Positions 32,805 to 41,937 of a DNA stretch of 64,000 nucleotides are shown piece by piece. Position 1 is the first letter of the stretch. Each line of letters opens with the position of its first letter. A program made the position numbers and the translations under genes. Under the pieces are notes generated by a model. It did not search any database. It was not told where the DNA came from and saw only the letters and a list, made by a program, of their open reading frames with translations. The DNA is from Syntrophobacteraceae bacterium (GTDB lineage: Bacteria > Desulfobacterota > Syntrophobacteria > Syntrophobacterales > Syntrophobacteraceae): positions 1 through 64,000 of the forward strand of contig JARLHO010000117.1 of the NCBI GenBank assembly GCA_031292215.1, given 5' to 3'.

Positions 32805-34259
32805 CTAATCGCGGTTATCGGGCCAATTGCCTACCACCCTGCCCTTGGAATCCCTGATTACCATCGAGATAGACGTCCCGCCATCCAGGCGGTGTGTAGC
32901 GCAAGACATTCAGGGGTCGTAGGCGCGAACCGCCATCTCAATCTTATTGAGACACCCTTGGTCCACGACGCCGTTTTTTATAAGCATCCGGGCAGCCTGG
33001 TTCACGCTCATGTTAATGGGCCCCAGGTTATGGGTGGTGCCAACGATTAAGTTCGCGCTCTTTATCAGGCCGTTTTCATCGGTTGTGTAGTCGTGAATGA
33101 GAGTTCCGCGCGGGGCCTCGACGCAGCCAACCCCTCTTCCGGCCCGCGGCTCGACTTTGGCCCGAACATCGGGGTTGGTGATTTCCGGGTCTTCCAGGAG
33201 CTCGATTGCATGCTCGCAGGCATAGACCTCTTCTATGAGCCTTGCCCAGTGATGGAGCAAAGTAAACTGGGCTGGCCTTCCGAACTTTTCGCGAAATTCT
33301 TCGAGCTCGGCCTGCGCCTTCGGGGTAGCCATCTTATCGGCCACGTTGATCCGCGCCAGGGTGTTTGCCCGGTAGATCCCCTTCGGATTTTCCAAATCGA
33401 GCGAAAACCCCTCGTTCCAGGCGCGCGCGTAGGGCATTTTCCCCATGGAGTAGGGTTCGACGTGCTCGGCTATGTGGTCGCGGTAATCCTGGGCGTCAAA
33501 ATCGGTATAGGCGCCGTCGGGCTTCATCAAACGCAGTTTTCCGTCGTAGAAGTTAACCGCGCCCTCCGGGTCCACCGTGCCGATAAATCCCGTTTTTATC
33601 ACCCCGAGTTCGGTTACCTCGTGTAGATATTTCGGAAACACTTCCTTTTTGGCAAAATCCATGGTGAAGAGGGCAAAATCGAGCACCTCCTGCATTTTGG
33701 AAAGAATTTCTCGCCTTTCCTCCTCGGTCATAGCTTTCGAAAAACCGCCCGGAACACCTGCCACGGGATGGATCGCCTTGCCGGCAAATTTTTCCAGAAT
33801 CATCTTGGCGGCGTAGCGCATTTTCACAACGCGCCGGGCCAACTCGGGCGCAGCCTTAACGATTCCCATGACGTTTCGTACCGAGTAATCGGCATCCGGG
33901 CCCATGACAAAATCGGGAGCCGCCAGGAAAAAGAAATGCAGCACCTTGTCTTCGGCATGGGCGACGGTTTGCATCAACTCCCGGAGCAATCTGCCGGAAC
34001 GCGTCGGCGTCACCCCAAAGCAGCGGTCCACCGCCTTATTTGAGGCCAGATGATGCTGCCACGGACATATTCCGCAGATGCGGGTAACGATTCGAGGCAG
34101 CTCTTCGGCAGGTTTTCCCTCAACAAATTTTTCAAACCCGCGAAGCGCCATGACATGGACTTTGCTCTCCGATACATTTCCCTGGTCGTCTAACTCAATG
34201 GTTATCGAGGCGTGGCCCTCGATTCGCGTTATTGGCTGAATGTTTATTACCTGTCCCAT
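32805..34259 (-). CDS. mvhA: [NiFeSe] hydrogenase large subunit MvhA, selenoprotein (UGA at 32910-32912)
   Basis: A 484-residue large subunit of the F420-non-reducing (Mvh/Vhu) hydrogenase. RICGICPWQHHLA near 61-73 gives two Ni ligands. At residue 450 a TGA lies in VRAYDP-UGA-MSCATH, exactly where the first Cys of the DPCxxC Ni-binding motif is expected. Reading through as selenocysteine gives DPUMSCATHRLDGG and a C-terminal extension of about 25 residues, which the maturation protease would cut after ATH, ending at TAG 32805-32807. Translation stopping at the UGA would remove both Ni ligands, so recoding is required for function. A SECIS-like hairpin follows 22 nt downstream. AGGAGG precedes the ATG and overlaps the mvhG stop. 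It oxidises H2 to feed electrons to MvhG/MvhD/HdrA. Confidence 0.95.
32878..32892 (-). promoter_or_regulatory. Bacterial SECIS-like hairpin of mvhA
   Basis: On the minus strand, CCGCC-TGGAT-GGCGG forms a 5-bp stem with a 5-nt loop containing GGAT. The loop begins 22 nt after the UGA, within the spacing used by SelB. Confidence 0.8.
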
Positions 34260-34271
34260 GGTGTAGGCCTC

Positions 34272-35201
34272 CTAGCCTTTTCGAGAAGGTCGGAGCAGGC
34301 CGTGTGCTCCGGAAAATCGCAGAAAGGATACGGACTCGGGAAGAGTCGATATGTCGATCCCGTTTGAAGCCAGCGCGTTTAGCATGTCAAAGCGCTGGTT
34401 CCCGTTTTCTTTTACCGGTCCATAGCAGCCCCTGCACGGAACCCGTGCGACAAGGCACCGGGGGGTGAGCCCCTCTCCGCCGCATCCACCTCTTGTGACC
34501 GCCCCCATGCAAAGAATCCCCTGCTCCATGAGGCAGCGCATTTTACCCAGCGGCTCACCCGGGGCGCCGTACCGGGGGGGTTGCAAAAACCGGCGAAGCT
34601 GCCCCACCTTGCCTTTTCCTTCCCGAACGGTCGGGCAGGTGTCGCAGACGCTTTTTGCGGGCAGATCGAGGGGGGTTCCATCCAGGAGCGCGATAAGCGC
34701 TGCAAACACCTGGTCGGGATTGGGCGGACATCCCGGCAGATAGATATCGACTTTTACGTTCTCATCGAGCGCCGTGCAGCACTGCTCAAGATTTGGCAAT
34801 CCGTCGGAGGGGACCTTTTCGGGCTTATCGGTTGTCTCCGTCGAGTAATATCTATCCAGTATTTCATCATTTCGGTAGGAATTGGCAAGAGCTGGAATAC
34901 CGCCATGAGTCGCGCAGGCGCCAAGGGCGATTAGCACCTGGCATTTTTTGCGCATCTCGGTTAGCACTTCCAGGTGCTCCTCGTTTCTTACCCCGCCGGA
35001 TACCAGTCCCACCACCGCCTCGGGTATCTGGAGATGATTTCCGCCCCCGAGCTGCCCGAAGTATTTGTGGTCCATAAGGACCGGGCCATGAACGAATTCG
35101 ATGAGACCCAGCACATCGAGGAGCCGCTCGCCCATATCCACCAGGGATATTTCACAGCCGGAACAGGAATTTAGCCATTCCTGAGCAACTTTTACCGCCA
35201 T
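34272..35201 (-). CDS. mvhG: [NiFe] hydrogenase small subunit MvhG
   Basis: A 309-residue small subunit carrying the Fe-S chain. WLNSCSGCEISLVD (proximal cluster CxxC) lies at about 10-23, IALGACATHGGIPA in the middle, and IYLPGCPPNPDQV supplies the fourth ligand. The C-terminal half is Cys-rich (VCDTCPTVREGKG; CLVARVPCRGCYGPV). No Tat signal is present, so it is cytoplasmic, as for Mvh-type enzymes. ATG 35201 with AAGGAGGGCGAG was chosen over an upstream ATG at 35264 inside mvhD. It passes electrons from MvhA to the 2Fe-2S protein MvhD. Confidence 0.95.
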   Translation of the reverse strand: MAVKVAQEWLNSCSGCEISLVDMGERLLDVLGLIEFVHGPVLMDHKYFGQLGGGNHLQIPEAVVGLVSGGVRNEEHLEVLTEMRKKCQVLIALGACATHGGIPALANSYRNDEILDRYYSTETTDKPEKVPSDGLPNLEQCCTALDENVKVDIYLPGCPPNPDQVFAALIALLDGTPLDLPAKSVCDTCPTVREGKGKVGQLRRFLQPPRYGAPGEPLGKMRCLMEQGILCMGAVTRGGCGGEGLTPRCLVARVPCRGCYGPVKENGNQRFDMLNALASNGIDISTLPESVSFLRFSGAHGLLRPSRKG

Positions 35202-35211
35202 CTCGCCCTCC

Positions 35212-35646
35212 TTATAAAGCAGCAGCGGCCGGGGAAACGGCGCGGTTAAAGGGTGAAGGCCCAAGGGCGCGAATATGTTCGGTCATCTCGGTCACAGCCG
35301 CTACAAACCTGTCGGCTTCCGCCGAGGAACACCACACGATCTCAAACCTCTCAGCTTCGAGTCCAAGAGCTTCCACCATCAGTTTTATAACGTCCGAACG
35401 GGCCAAGGCCTTGTAATTACCATCCTGGTAATGGCATTCTCCAAGGTGTCAACCCATTACCATCACACCGTCGGCGCCCTTTTCAAAGGCCTGCGCCACA
35501 ACTTTTGGGTGCACCATCCCCGAACACATCACCCGCACGAGCCGCACGTTGTGCGGGTACTGCATGCGGGAGACCCCGGCAAGATCGGCCGCTGCGTAAC
35601 TGCACCAGTTACAGGTAAAACCGATTATTTTGGGTTCAAATGACAT
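35212..35646 (-). CDS. mvhD: MvhD iron-sulfur linker subunit, selenoprotein (UGA at 35449-35451)
   Basis: A 144-residue delta subunit that connects the hydrogenase to HdrA. The first half reads [20 protein letters not shown] and [14 protein letters not shown]. At residue 66 a TGA stands in [24 protein letters not shown], where the family has Cys (GCHLGDCHY). The same frame continues unbroken through [20 protein letters not shown] and IRALGPSP to TAA 35212-35214. Sec at this position is known in VhuD of some methanogens. A SECIS-like hairpin follows at 22 nt. The gene lies 51 bases after hdrA and 10 before mvhG. Confidence 0.94.
35416..35432 (-). promoter_or_regulatory. Bacterial SECIS-like hairpin of mvhD
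   Basis: ATTACC-AGGAT-GGTAAT on the minus strand: a 6-bp perfect stem with loop AGGAT, starting 22 nt after the UGA. Confidence 0.8.
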
Positions 35647-35697: not shown

Positions 35698-38600
35698 TTA
35701 AATGGCCAGGGCCGCATCGACCTGGGCCGCGATCTGCTCGAGCGAAAAACCGGCGACAAAGACGCCGTCCTTGGGGCAGGTCGCCTGGCACAAACCGCAC
35801 CCCTTGCACCGGGCAAGATTTATTTCCACCCGCAGGCCCGCCTTCGCCCCGGCCACCTCTGCAGCAACCAGAGATATTGCGTTGTAGGGGCAGACGTCGA
35901 GGCACATCGCGCACCCATCGCAGTTGGCGCTTACAACCGTTGCCTTGGTGGGCTCAAGATCTATGCTGCTGTTGGCAAGCACACTTACCGCCCGTCCGGC
36001 TGCGGCCTTGGCCTGGGCAATCGATTCGTCCACGGGCTTGGGACAGTGAGCCAGGCCCGCCATGAAAATTCCATCGGCTGCGAAATCAACCGGCCGAAGC
36101 TTCGCGTGGGCTTCCTGGAAAAAGCCGTCGGAATCGATCGGGAGCCGGTAGATGTCGGCCAGCTCAGCCGTTGCCGCATTGGCAACGACAGCCGTCGCCA
36201 ACACCACGATATCGGCTACGATCCGAAGGGGCTCGTGCAACACGTGGTCAAAGACCTCCACTTCGAGCCGGCGAGGTTCGAGGGATTTGACCCGGGGCTT
36301 GAGATGGGATTCATAATGGATGAAGACCACCCCCTTTTCCCTCGCCTTTCGGTAGAGCTCCTCCCGCTGGCCGTACGTTCTCATATCGCGATAGAGGATA
36401 AACACTTCGCCGTCGGGGTTTTCTTCCTTAAGCTGGAGGGCGGCCTGCACCGAATGGGTGCAGCACACCCGGGAGCAGTACATCCGCTCCTCGCATCTGG
36501 AGCCGACGCACTGGATGAAGACGTAATTTTTGGCCTCTTTCATGCGGCGGTCGCCCGCCATGTGGAGCTTGTCGAATTCGATGGCGGTAAAGACCCGGCT
36601 GGACGTCCCGAAAAGATATTCGCCCTCGGGCACATAGCCCTGCGCGCCCGTAGCGAGGATGGTGACGCCGTGGTCTATGGTTGTTGAAGTTTTGCCGCTT
36701 AGAATCGTGGACTTGAAATTTCCGACAAAACCTTCGGCCGAAGCAACGGTCGAATCCAGGTGGAGGGCGATAAGGGGGTTGCTTCGCACCCGGGCGTCGA
36801 GTTCCTGGAGGGCCGGCTCGATCCGTTCGCCCTTCCAGGTGCGAAAGAGGTGGCGAGCCTGGCCGCCAACCACGCTGCTTTTCTCCACAAGCGTTACGGG
36901 GAAGCCGTGATCTGCCAGCGCAAGGGCCGAGACCATCCCCGAGAGCCCGGCGCCAACCACGAGGGCCGCCTGGCTAACGGGAACCGAAATCGCTGGAAGC
37001 GCTGAGAGAAGCCCCACCTTGGCAACGGACATCCTTACGAGATCCATCGCCTTTTCGGTCGCCCTTTCGGGTTCTGCCGCATGGACCCACGAGTCCTGGT
37101 TGCGGATATTGGCCATATCGAAAAGATAGGGGTTTAGTCCCGCCGCCTTCAAAGTCTCCCGGAAAAGCGGCTCATGGGTCCTTGGCGTACACGCGGCCAC
37201 AACGACCCGGTTTAGACCCTTTTCCTTTATGGTGTTTTTGATGCTATCCTGGGTGTCCTGCGAGCAACTGAAAAGATTTCGCGCGACATGGGCAACGCCT
37301 GGTAGCGTTTGCGCATACCGGGCGACCCGCTCCACATCCACTACCCCGGCGATATTGGCGCCGCAGTGGCAGATGAAGACCCCGATGCGTACCGGCTGGT
37401 CGCATACCTCGATTTCCGGTGGAAATTCCCTCTTTTGAGTGAGGCTGTTACGAGCCCCGGCCAACAAGCGGGTCGCATCGGCTGCTGCTGCCGAGGCCTC
37501 CATCACCGTCTGGGGAATGTCTTTGGGGCCCGAAAAGGCGCCGCAGGAAAAAACCCCGGGCCGGGAAGTCCCGACGGGGTCAAAGGAGGAGGACTCGACG
37601 AAGCGATTCTCGTTTAGCTCAACGCCTGCGTGGTATGCGAGCTCGAGTGCCGAGGCGGGCGTGCAAAGCCCCACCGAAAGGACCACCATGTCGTATCGGG
37701 CCTCAATCTGCCGGCCCTTCTCGTCAATGTAGCGAAAATAGATGTCGCTTGTATCCCTTACCGGCTCAAGAGAGTGGACGCGGCAGCGTTGGAACCCGAT
37801 CCCGAGATCTTTTGCCCGCTCGTAGTAGCGTTCGAACTCCTTGCCGTAGGTCCTCATGTCCATATAGAAGATCGTCGCCTCAAGGTCTTTTACATGGTCT
37901 TTTGCGATCATCGCCTGCTTTATGGCGTACGTGCAGCAAACCGAGGAGCAGTATCCGTTTTGCGATTTATTGAGGTCCCGGGATCCCACGCACTGAATGA
38001 ATGCGATCCTTTTTACCTCTTTTTTGTCCGAAGGGCGTACGAGGTGGCCATCGGTTGGCCCCGAGGCGGACAGATACCTTTCGAGCTCCATCGAAGTGAT
38101 AACGTTTTTGAATGTGCCATAGCCCCAGGTGCGGATACCGCTCGGATCAAAGGTCGAAAATCCCGGGCTTAAAACGATGGCCCCAACGTGTAAGCTCATC
38201 GTTTGGGGCTTATCCTCGAAATTTATCGCGCCCGCCGGACAGAACTTTTCACAGGCGCGGCATTTCCCGCTTTTAAAGTAGATGCAGTTGTCGCGATCTA
38301 TTGCGTACTTCTGGGGGACCGCCTGCGCATACGGGATGTAGATGGCCTTTCGCTGCGAGATCTTCTCGTTATATTCGTCATCTACCTTCTTGGGGCATTT
38401 CTCGGCGCACACGCCGCAGGCGATGCACTTTTCGGTATCCACAAACCGCGGACGCCGGGTCACTTCCACGGTAAAGTCTCCCGGCCCGCCTTTTACGTCG
38501 GTTACCTCGGCAAGAGTGATCAGCTCAATATTTAAGTGCCGGCCGACCTCGACCAGCTTGGGCGAAATAATTCACATCGCGCAGTCATTGGTTGGGAATG

Positions 38601-38763
38601 TCTTATCGAGCTGGGCCATTTTGCCGCCAATGGCCGGACGCCGTTCCAGCAAATACACGTAGAACCCGGAGTTGGCGGCGTCGAGTGCTGCCTGCATCCC
38701 GGCTATTCCCCCGCCGGCAATCAAAACCGAGCCTTTACCCTGTTCGCTCATTTTCCACTCCAT
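35698..38763 (-). CDS. hdrA: Long HdrA flavoprotein, selenoprotein (UGA at 38572-38574)
   Basis: A 1021-residue HdrA, the flavin-bifurcating core of the heterodisulfide reductase/hydrogenase complex. The FAD motif [16 protein letters not shown] lies near 14-29. At residue 64 a TGA occurs in [21 protein letters not shown], where HdrA has Cys (DCSMC), and the frame continues through [12 protein letters not shown] near 115 and further clusters. This is the long form: a second dinucleotide-binding motif ([14 protein letters not shown]) starts about residue 520, with further [16 protein letters not shown] motifs and two C-terminal 4Fe-4S motifs ([24 protein letters not shown]). ATG 38763 or 38751 are both possible starts. 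It follows the hdrD-like gene by 5 bases. Electrons from H2 would be split at its flavin between ferredoxin and a disulfide-type acceptor. Confidence 0.95.
38538..38557 (-). promoter_or_regulatory. Bacterial SECIS-like hairpin of hdrA
   Basis: GCTGGTCG-AGGT-CGGCCGGC on the minus strand: an 8-bp stem including G-U pairs, with an AGGT loop. The loop begins 22 nt after the UGA, as in the other three genes. Confidence 0.75.
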
Positions 38764-38768
38764 TTCGG

Positions 38769-40247
38769 CTACTCCCGCTCTTCCTTGCCCGAATCGAGGA
38801 TAAGGGCATCGGAGACCAGTTCCCAGATATATTTGACGTCGATATCGAGCTTATATTCCTTGCGAAGGCTCTTTAGGATCTGGTCGCGGCAGTTGTGGCA
38901 CGAGGTTACGACCAGCTCGGCCCCGGTGGAACGTATCTGCCGTTCCTTAAACCGCCCGTAGAACACCCGCTCTTCCTGGAAAGGCAGCGCCCATGCGCCC
39001 CCGCCGCCCCCGCAGCAGTAGTTTCCTTCCCTGTTGGGATACATTTCGACAAAATTATCGCAGCAGTGGCCGAGGATCTCTCGGGGTTCCTCGAAATAGC
39101 CCCGACCGAAGGTCTTAAGCGACTTTCTGCCGTAGTTGCACGGATCGTGATAGGTGGCGAGCTTGGGGTGGACGGATTTATCGATTTTTATTCGACCGCT
39201 GCGGATGTAGTCGAGCAAAAGATCGAACACCGTAACGATTTCAAAGCGCCTAGCCTCGTCGGCGTACCATTTTTCCAACCCGAACCGGGTTGCATAGTAG
39301 GCATGGCCTCATTCGGGCAAGAGGAGTTTTTTGCAGTCGAGCCGCAACATGTTGTCGACTATGCGGCCGACCATGATGCGCATCGCATCGTCGTCTCCGG
39401 TGAAAAGGCCCCAGTTTACCCCCTCCCAGTTCTCCGAGGAAATGGTCCAGGACTCGCCGGCGGCATGAAAGATCTTCCACCAAAATTTCATGTCGTCGGG
39501 CTCGCCAAAGGGTTCCTTGGAATTTACGGTCACCAGAAGGCCCGCCCCCTCGACATCGATCGGGGTAACAAAGCCCGGACAGCATTCCTCGGCGAGCTCT
39601 TCTCCCACCTCTTCGAGGAGCCCCACGAAATCGGCCCGGGGTATGCCGAGGTTATTGCCCCGTCGAAGAGCCATCACCACGCCCTTGTGAAGAGGCCCCG
39701 GGACCTTGTCGCGCTCCCGAAGAGAGCGGATCCGGCGAAAGAGCTTCACCAGCTCCAGATTCATGGGGCACGCTTCTTCGCATTTTCCGCACATCGTGCA
39801 CTTCCACGGCCAGTTTGAGGCGACCACCTCGCTCGTTCGCCCCAAGACAACCATGCGGACGATTTTTCGGGGATCGAGGCCGTCTACCCCGGAAATGGGA
39901 CAGGCGCTGGCACAGCTCCCACAGGTAAGGCACAGGTCGGCCCACCCCGGGTCGGCCCGCAAAACGCTTTGCCGGTCGCCAACCGTTCTCGCTTCCCCAA
40001 AAGATGACTGCGGCATGATTTTTTCCTCCCTTCCTGCCCAATAGGACTCTTTTGACACCAACCGGGAAACCACGTTTTCGGGAATCCCTTGAAGAGCGCA
40101 GAATCTGCGGAACTCCTTTTCTTCGACGAAATATTTTTTGGCAACAGTGGCCGAGGCGGCAAGCGCGCCGCTCTTAATCCAGTTTCTGACGGTGTTTCGG
40201 TGCACGCCAAAAATATCGGCAATCTCTCCGACTCGTATTTCGATCAC
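38769..40247 (-). CDS. HTH-HdrD-like (HdrC-HdrB fusion) subunit, selenoprotein (UGA at 39309-39311)
   Basis: A 492-residue frame. Residues 1-60 are an excisionase/MerR-type helix-turn-helix ([20 protein letters not shown], then [16 protein letters not shown]). From about 78 it is HdrD-like: two HdrC-type 4Fe-4S motifs ([24 protein letters not shown]), then HdrB-like CCG regions ([26 protein letters not shown]). At residue 313 a TGA stands in [18 protein letters not shown], where relatives have ECGHA. Two starts are plausible: GTG 40247 (GGAG 9 bases upstream) gives the HTH fusion, while ATG 40016 has a strong GGGAGG and gives 415 residues without HTH. It should hold the site that reduces the disulfide-type acceptor. 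It is first in the hdr-mvh operon. Confidence 0.9.
39276..39292 (-). promoter_or_regulatory. Bacterial SECIS-like hairpin of the hdrD-like gene
   Basis: CAACCC-GGTTC-GGGTTG on the minus strand: a 6-bp perfect stem with a 5-nt GG-containing loop, starting 22 nt after the UGA. Confidence 0.8.
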
Positions 40248-40735
40248 TTTGCGACGCTCCGCGGTGTTTGGGTTTGTGCAAACGATGCCAATTGTGCGAA
40301 CGGCCCGATTTTACGTTTTGCATCGCGCTTGTCAAGGAACATTTGGCACAACGGGCGCAAAAGCACCACACATTTTTTCTCGCGGCGAAAAATTTTCTCC
40401 CGTCAAGACGCGAAGACATTAAGAAGTTAAGACGCGCAGAAACCTTTTCATGGTTTCCGGGTGTCCCGGCGGGAACAGGCGAAACTGCTTCGAAAAGAGG
40501 CGCAAAGACGAGCTGAGAGGAAAGACTGCGGTGGATTCAGGTGTACATGGAGGCGACAACTATCGGGGCTTTGACCAAAGGCAATCCCAAACAGTCGATT
40601 TAGCGGAGAGATTAAGTTAGAAAAGAGCACCCACGGGCCGCGAAAGCGGACCCCTTGCCCCAAAGACCCTAACGGATATATAATCACCCGCCGGCAGGGA
40701 GCGAAATAATTCTTAAGAATCTGCGAGATTTCCTT
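40248..40735. other. Divergent intergenic region between hdrD-like gene and maturation protease
   Basis: A 488-base region that must carry the promoters of the hydrogenase operon (minus) and the maturation protease (plus). It contains AAGACGCGAAGAC-type dispersed repeat sequence near 40395-40440. I could not identify a convincing sigma-54 or sigma-70 pair. Confidence 0.4.
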
Positions 40736-41236
40736 ATGACAAGTGACATGTTCGAAAAAGAGGTCCTGATCTTTGGATGCGGCAACACGCTGCTCGGAGA
40801 CGATGGGTTTGGCCCGGCGGTTATAGAATATCTCGAAAAAAACTTCCGTTTGCCCCCCTCGGTCATGGCGCTGGATGCGGGAACGGGAATACGGGGTATT
40901 CTTTTCGATCTGATGCTGATTGAGACCAGGCCGCGAGAGCTCATAGTAATCGATGCCGTCGAATACCCCGGCCGTACCCCCGGGGAGCTCTTCGAGATTC
41001 CGGTAGAAGGGATCCCGGACGCCAAGGCCGGCGATTTTTCGATGCACCAGTTTCCAACGGTCAATATGCTTTTGGAATTACAAGACCATGCGGACATCCA
41101 TGTGCAAATCCTCGTGGTGCAGATCGAATCGATACCCGGGGAAGTAAGGCCGGGGCTTTCCGGGCCGGTGGCTCAAGCCGTCCCCCGCGCCTGCGCCTAT
41201 CTTATGGAGAAGATAGAAAACATCCTGGCCGTTTAG
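40736..41236 (+). CDS. Hydrogenase maturation protease (HycI/HyaD/FrcD family)
   Basis: A 166-residue endopeptidase that removes the C-terminal extension of a hydrogenase large subunit after Ni insertion. The signature VLIFGCGNTLLGDDGFGPAV lies at about 10-29 with the Ni-sensing acids, and LDAGTGIRG and ELIVIDAVEYPG follow. The likely substrate is the Sec-containing MvhA encoded divergently, whose predicted tail after ATH is intact. No other hydrogenase large subunit is in the window. Confidence 0.9.
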   Translation: MTSDMFEKEVLIFGCGNTLLGDDGFGPAVIEYLEKNFRLPPSVMALDAGTGIRGILFDLMLIETRPRELIVIDAVEYPGRTPGELFEIPVEGIPDAKAGDFSMHQFPTVNMLLELQDHADIHVQILVVQIESIPGEVRPGLSGPVAQAVPRACAYLMEKIENILAV

Positions 41237-41298: not shown

Positions 41299-41311
41299 TT
41301 TTAGCCGTTAT

Positions 41312-41366
41312 ATGCGGTGATGGAGTCCACCCGAACCGCCGCCTGCCGGCTGATGACTCCTACCTT
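41312..41366 (+). ncRNA. Fluoride (crcB) riboswitch aptamer
   Basis: The sequence GCGGTGATGGAGTCCACC, followed by CGAACCGCCGCCTGCC, GGCTGATGACTCCTACC, carries the conserved GATGG and TGATGACTCCTAC blocks of the fluoride aptamer, whose pseudoknot binds fluoride through magnesium ions. The CrcB fluoride channel gene follows, as expected. Confidence 0.93.
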
Positions 41367-41423
41367 GGCGACACTTTATACTAGTTGGGACCTGGTAGGG
41401 CGTTTTCGGATCGCGTAAGCCCC

Positions 41424-41461: not shown

Positions 41462-41559
41462 GTCGCCCTCCAAAAAGCACTTACCCGGTTTGACCGATAA
41501 TCGGCATCATTTGCCGCCTTCCCTTTAGCGGCAAGGTTTTGGAGACTGCGAAGGATCGC

Positions 41560-41937
41560 ATGCTTAATGTATTGCTTGTCCTGGTTGGCGGAGGCCTGGG
41601 CGCTCTTTCCCGTTACGGAGTTTCGCTTCTTGCCGTCAAGCTCCTGGGAACGAGATTTCCTTTCGGCACCCTTATCGTTAACCTTTCCGGCTGTTTTTTG
41701 ATCGGACTATCTTTTGCTCTGGCCGAACGGGGTCTAAATATCATGAACCCGTTGATTCGGCTCTTTTTCATTACGGGTTTTCTAGGAGGTCTTACTACCT
41801 TTTCGAGCTACGCCATGGAAACGGCGAACACGATTCGAGTCGGCGCCTATCTGGTAGCGGCTGGAAATTTTTTATCCAATAATGTTATCGGTGGCGTCCT
41901 TGTCTTTATCGGGCTGTGGGTTGGCAAGATTTTATAA
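41560..41937 (+). CDS. crcB: Fluoride ion channel CrcB/Fluc
   Basis: A 125-residue membrane protein with four helices, the usual CrcB length. VGGGLGALSRYGVS, FPFGTLIVNLSGCFLIG (with the key Asn) and GFLGGLTTFSSYAMET are hallmark motifs. Dimers export fluoride. ATG 41560 has AAGGA 5-9 bases upstream; an upstream in-frame TTG is unlikely. It is controlled by the riboswitch in front. Confidence 0.97.
   Translation: MLNVLLVLVGGGLGALSRYGVSLLAVKLLGTRFPFGTLIVNLSGCFLIGLSFALAERGLNIMNPLIRLFFITGFLGGLTTFSSYAMETANTIRVGAYLVAAGNFLSNNVIGGVLVFIGLWVGKIL

Follow-up and report, generated by a model that had tools for sequence, protein, structure and literature searches.

A BldC-like helix-turn-helix domain fused to a heterodisulfide reductase subunit, and conserved direct repeats that suggest autogenous control of its Hdr-Mvh operon

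Background

The HTH_17 group of helix-turn-helix (HTH) domains takes in BldC, RdfS and Xis (PMC11963761). BldC protomers bind 9-bp direct repeats in a head to tail arrangement, one protomer to each repeat (PMC5859096). The domain described here resembles BldC, Pukovnik Xis and RdfS in its winged HTH (wHTH) fold, in the order of its elements and in its association with 9-bp direct repeats. The known members of the BldC family are small stand-alone proteins, whereas this domain forms the N terminus of an Fe-S redox subunit and apparently targets its own operon. Because the fusion partner is a 390-residue Hdr core, the protein, named HTH-HdrD here, carries a BldC-like domain and is not a BldC protein.

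The trifunctional PutA (RHH-PRODH-P5CDH) represses put through its own N-terminal DNA-binding domain (PMC5293562). HTH-HdrD is alike in joining a metabolic redox enzyme to an N-terminal domain of DNA-binding type, and control of its own operon is proposed below. The DNA-binding fold and the enzyme are different, the latter being an Hdr Fe-S/Sec subunit, and the putative operator is a direct repeat. Two features of the PutA type are found, namely a DNA-binding-type domain on an enzyme subunit and, at the operon of that subunit, an operator-like element that is conserved. HdrR of Methanosarcina barkeri is a separate HTH protein that activates the hdr operon from a palindromic site (PMC11218639); it resembles the role proposed for HTH-HdrD in that an HTH protein controls an hdr operon, but differs in being separate, in being an activator and in the palindromic form of its site. 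The remainder of HTH-HdrD is clearly homologous to HdrC-HdrB fusions of the HdrD/HmcF/TmcB/DsrK type (NCBIfam HmcF E 1e-63, below cut-off). All three models score below their cut-offs (HmcF 215 of 750 bits, TmcB 176 of 735, DsrK 165 of 400) and match only after residue 100, leaving the HTH uncovered, and HTH-HdrD has selenocysteine (Sec) at residue 313. A search of the open literature found no paper describing a DNA-binding domain on a heterodisulfide reductase subunit. The reading favored here, with a probability of roughly three in four, is that HTH-HdrD is a PutA-like autogenous (trigger-enzyme) regulator of its own Hdr-Mvh operon that would act through a BldC-type domain.

Results and Discussion

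Organization of the gene and operon

The window is a 64,000-nucleotide stretch of a Syntrophobacteraceae bacterium contig (JARLHO010000117.1), and its features are listed in Table 1. The HTH-HdrD frame is open from GTG 40247 to the stop codon at 38769 apart from a single in-frame TGA, and joins the HTH to the HdrD-like core. HTH residues 6-49 match Pfam HTH_17 (E 5e-9, 36.7 bits against a cut-off of 27), and the core matches Fer4_8 and CCG above their cut-offs, giving two [4Fe-4S] motifs and a Cys-rich CCG domain. Structure comparison of the core matched EtfD, HdrB and HdrC. Membership of the HTH in the MerR group was rejected, as those Pfam matches fell under cut-off.

Table 1. Coordinates of the HTH-HdrD gene, its regulatory features and its neighbors in the window
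Feature	Position	Strand	Remarks
HTH-HdrD gene (wHTH, linker, HdrC-like 2x[4Fe-4S] and HdrB-like CCG core)	38769..40247	(-)	Sec at residue 313
Winged HTH domain, residues 1-66	40050..40247	(-)	HTH_17, BldC/Xis-like
Variable disordered linker, residues 67-100	39948..40049	(-)	low pLDDT
Sec codon TGA, residue 313	39309..39311	(-)	
Shine-Dalgarno GGAG for the GTG 40247 start	40257..40260	(-)	
Internal initiation site GGGAGG...ATG (ATG 40016, residue 78)	40014..40030	(-)	conservation limited to the window's clade
Candidate operator, three 9-bp direct repeats GCACAATTG GCATCGTTT GCACAA	40274..40297	(-)	
Sigma-70-type promoter TTGACA-16-TAAAAT (11/12)	40308..40335	(-)	ends 10 nt before the operator
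Inverted half-site TTGTGC, ~10 nt upstream of -35	40346..40351	(-)	partly by eye
HdrA with Sec	35698..38763	(-)	AMUIISPK; in-frame TGA about 38569
MvhD-like protein with Sec	35212..35646	(-)	identity from position, size and sequence
MvhG-like hydrogenase small subunit	34272..35264	(-)	
MvhA-like [NiFe] hydrogenase large subunit	32910..34259	(-)	
Hydrogenase-maturation-protease-like gene	40736..41236	(+)	named by sequence inspection

The in-frame TGA is read as Sec because 60 fused orthologues have TGA at this position and 11 have Cys, and because the genome encodes SelB (above cut-off). Leu, Gly or Thr, in one orthologue each (L049, L062 and L084), replaces Sec/Cys at this redox-active-looking position with the HTH retained; these are possibly regulatory-leaning copies. 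The in-frame TAG of some fused genes was also considered and is an ordinary C-terminal stop.

HTH-HdrD stands upstream of HdrA-MvhD-MvhG-MvhA in the window. The operon encodes three selenoproteins (HTH-HdrD, HdrA and the MvhD-like protein), each with an in-frame TGA. The protease gene is divergent here, and in most relatives it is the first gene of the operon.

Conservation of the fusion

Homologues were compared in 98 related genomes, where many align from residue 1-2 and in others the alignment sets in at about residue 100. Among named genomes, a scan yielded 80 fused loci across Desulfobacterota (Syntrophobacteraceae, Desulfarculaceae, Desulfobulbaceae, Desulfocapsaceae and others); the loci are mutually related, so their counts are of non-independent events, and several of the sequences are from MAGs. 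Most of these loci have the order protease - HTH-HdrD - HdrA - MvhG - MvhA. Several orthologues begin at an ATG immediately behind a stop codon (e.g. L012, L014, L020 and L024), and since orthologue alignments cover the query from residue 1-2 onward, the HTH is part of the gene. An assembly or reading-frame artefact is ruled out, the HTH being kept in isolates such as Desulfacinum, Desulforhabdus and Desulfopila. No orthologue among those examined carries the HTH as a separate gene before HdrD. The initial annotation had placed the HTH in frame with an HdrC/HdrB fusion and proposed orthologue comparison; the single open frame with its domain matches bears out the former, and the 80 loci establish that the fusion is conserved.

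Ten residues are invariant across 34 aligned fused proteins (A10, G14, V15, H16, R17, N18, T19, N22, W23 and C50), and these take in the recognition segment of the HTH, GVHRNT..NW. Close relatives show the HTH evolving under purifying selection (dN/dS 0.07-0.31), with a faster-changing linker. The invariant C50 (codon 40100-40098) is the sole cysteine of the window's HTH and is a candidate thiol switch.

Similarity of the fold to BldC

The AlphaFold model consists of the wHTH, the disordered linker and the Hdr core. When the HTH alone was compared with the PDB using Foldseek, the best matches were the BldC-DNA entries 6amk and 6ama (TMt 0.64-0.73, E about 9e-3), followed by Pukovnik Xis; structural E-values near 0.01 are as expected given the small domain size. 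The top match of a single-sequence search was also BldC (weak, E 0.038). The BldC residues Phe21, Val23 and Trp31, which form the head-to-tail hydrophobic interface, correspond to F/L13, V15 and W23 of HTH-HdrD, the latter two being invariant. At the base-contacting positions, Arg30 and Lys26 of BldC are replaced by the invariant Asn22 and Asn18, and because of these Asn residues the specificity of HTH-HdrD must differ from that of BldC.

Relatives without the HTH and the internal start

Two close relatives, L146 and L134, lack the HTH and show 82% and 81% identity, respectively. In the tree both are nested in the window's clade (SH-aLRT 100); the neighbor of L146 is the fused L037 (SH-aLRT 99) and that of L134, placed with weaker support, is the fused L009 (82). 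Their start codons align exactly with ATG 40016 and follow a strong Shine-Dalgarno sequence, the start stretches of the two genes being AAAGGAGG-TAAGA-ATG and AAAAGGAGG-AAAAC-ATG.

The initial annotation had named two starts, and both have the ribosome binding sites ascribed to them, GGAG for GTG 40247 and GGGAGG (40030-40025) for ATG 40016. The internal Shine-Dalgarno and ATG are kept in all fused members read of the window's clade despite the variable linker. Codons 78-100 also exhibit lowered synonymous change in close relatives (dS 0.29-0.48 versus 0.74-0.92 for the core, over few codons). This pattern suggests that the second start probably adds an HTH-free catalytic form in the window's clade, so the earlier idea of two products from one gene holds for this clade and is not upheld for the rest of the family. 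The losses of the HTH in L134 and L146 would be survivable, on this reading, because the internal start works. Alternatively, only the full-length product of GTG 40247 is made and the internal site either survives from a time when the gene began there or arose by chance from Lys-Glu-Glu codons (AAGGAGGAA), as AAG-GAG-GAA is inherently Shine-Dalgarno-like and the site is unconserved outside the clade. The retention of the site, the precise starts of L134 and L146 and the lowered dS speak against this explanation, which is tenable but on balance doubtful.

A conserved 9-bp direct repeat at the operon promoter

Upstream alignments of the fused loci show GCACAA units recurring within otherwise diverged DNA. 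At the operon promoter, two to four copies of GCAC(AA) follow one another in the same direction, strictly every 9 bp. In 75 dereplicated upstream regions of 260 bp, GCAC recurs at exactly 9-bp spacing in 53 loci against 0.4 expected from dinucleotide shuffles. The runner-up spacing is 18 bp, a multiple of 9 (7 loci, 0.6 expected), and the remaining spacings occur in at most 4 loci. A motif-free test with any 5-mer likewise picks 9 bp (48 versus 18). A looser pattern is present in 68 of the 75 loci, 15 of which have three or four units, and is absent near the start in the other seven.

The repeats precede whichever gene heads the operon, which is the protease in most loci and HTH-HdrD in the window and others. 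They lie ~720 nt upstream in L037 and ~949 nt upstream in L009, beside a TTGACA-TAAAAT-like promoter, and the frames between repeats and gene in L009 resemble, by eye, a decayed protease. The inverted half-site upstream of the window's promoter is also present as TTGTGC in L034 and L036 and as CTGTGC in L035, which are close relatives of the window, and could be an auxiliary operator. A Rex-type inverted site was rejected as the main element, as what is conserved is an arrangement of direct repeats.

The strict doublet was found in none of 36 HTH-less HdrD loci with up to 4.5 kb upstream examined (Fisher P 5e-14), most of these controls belonging to another Hdr paralogue clade. L134 and L146 are the only close-orthologue controls and so carry the most weight. 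Neither the HTH nor the repeats were found in those two, the L146 contig extending 1.6 kb upstream. Their positions in the tree point to two HTH losses within the window's clade, with the operator lost together with the HTH.

The 4.89 Mb genome has no second copy of the window's triple pattern. A genome-wide regulon was rejected for this genome, as the doublet GCAYN5GCACAA has 16 matches versus 15 in the control. One perfect doublet (G000:C89:16177) is attributed to chance and sits in an MHKMHK-coding repeat of a Mrp-like gene. Counts of the same type of doublet in eight other genomes are near or below control in some and above it in others (e.g. the genomes of L079 and L051).

The repeats might instead be the operator of another, trans-acting regulator, with the HTH of HTH-HdrD serving some other role, and HdrR is a case in which a separate protein regulates an hdr operon (PMC11218639). 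This is improbable, as the repeats accompany the fused HTH and are missing with HTH-less HdrD, including the two nested relatives, a BldC-type HTH binds just such a 9-bp repeat, and the window's own genome has no wider regulon. It is still less probable, and very unlikely, that the HTH-like domain does not bind DNA and serves the Hdr-Mvh complex in protein-protein contacts or assembly. Its fusion to and conservation with a structural/catalytic subunit would fit such a role, but its invariant residues are those of the recognition segment and a matching repeat is present at the promoter.

Proposed mechanism of autogenous control

An autoregulatory role for the fusion had been put forward in the initial annotation and now has strong comparative support from the conserved 9-bp operator, the joint absence of HTH and operator in two nested relatives, and the BldC-like fold. 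In the proposed mechanism, the BldC-type wHTH would bind the 2-4 GCACAA repeats at the promoter of its own operon, one protomer to a repeat and arranged head to tail. The repeats in the window lie just downstream of the -10 element, and because of this position binding should block transcription. Repression in Desulfobulbales is a positional guess, because promoters there are weakly predicted. The disordered linker of about 35 residues would tether the HTH so that the Hdr core is still free to join HdrA/MvhD, and the amount of free subunit, either unassembled or redox-altered, would be a plausible signal.

Judging from the orthologue sequences, Sec cannot be needed for regulation in general, since 11 fused orthologues have Cys and three have neither; the redox sensing via Fe-S/Sec envisaged in the initial annotation would be compatible with the evidence. 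An extension, regarded as unlikely, is that the electron or selenium status of the Hdr core gates promoter binding through cluster redox state, Cys50 or UGA termination at Sec313. In the selenium shortage variant, termination would leave a repressor made of the HTH and two clusters. If such gating were true, the operon would have a direct sensor of redox or selenium in its own electron-transfer subunit.

If autogenous control is correct, a hydrogenase-Hdr electron-transfer complex of sulfur-metabolizing anaerobes would be controlled by its own subunit, and BldC-type direct-repeat binding would no longer be confined to proteins of development and excision but would include a metabolic trigger enzyme. 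The family also gains a concrete operator prediction, GCACAA repeats with a 9-bp period.

Other features of the loci

HdrA follows HTH-HdrD in L038, L039, L041, L044, L046, L051, L079, L085 and L089, with no MvhG/MvhA in the fetched stretch, and the module may serve other electron donors in such loci. Adjoining the Hdr operon in the window is a fluoride riboswitch (Rfam RF01734, 57.6 bits) at 41307-41369 (+), upstream of a CrcB-like ORF at 41539-41937 (+).
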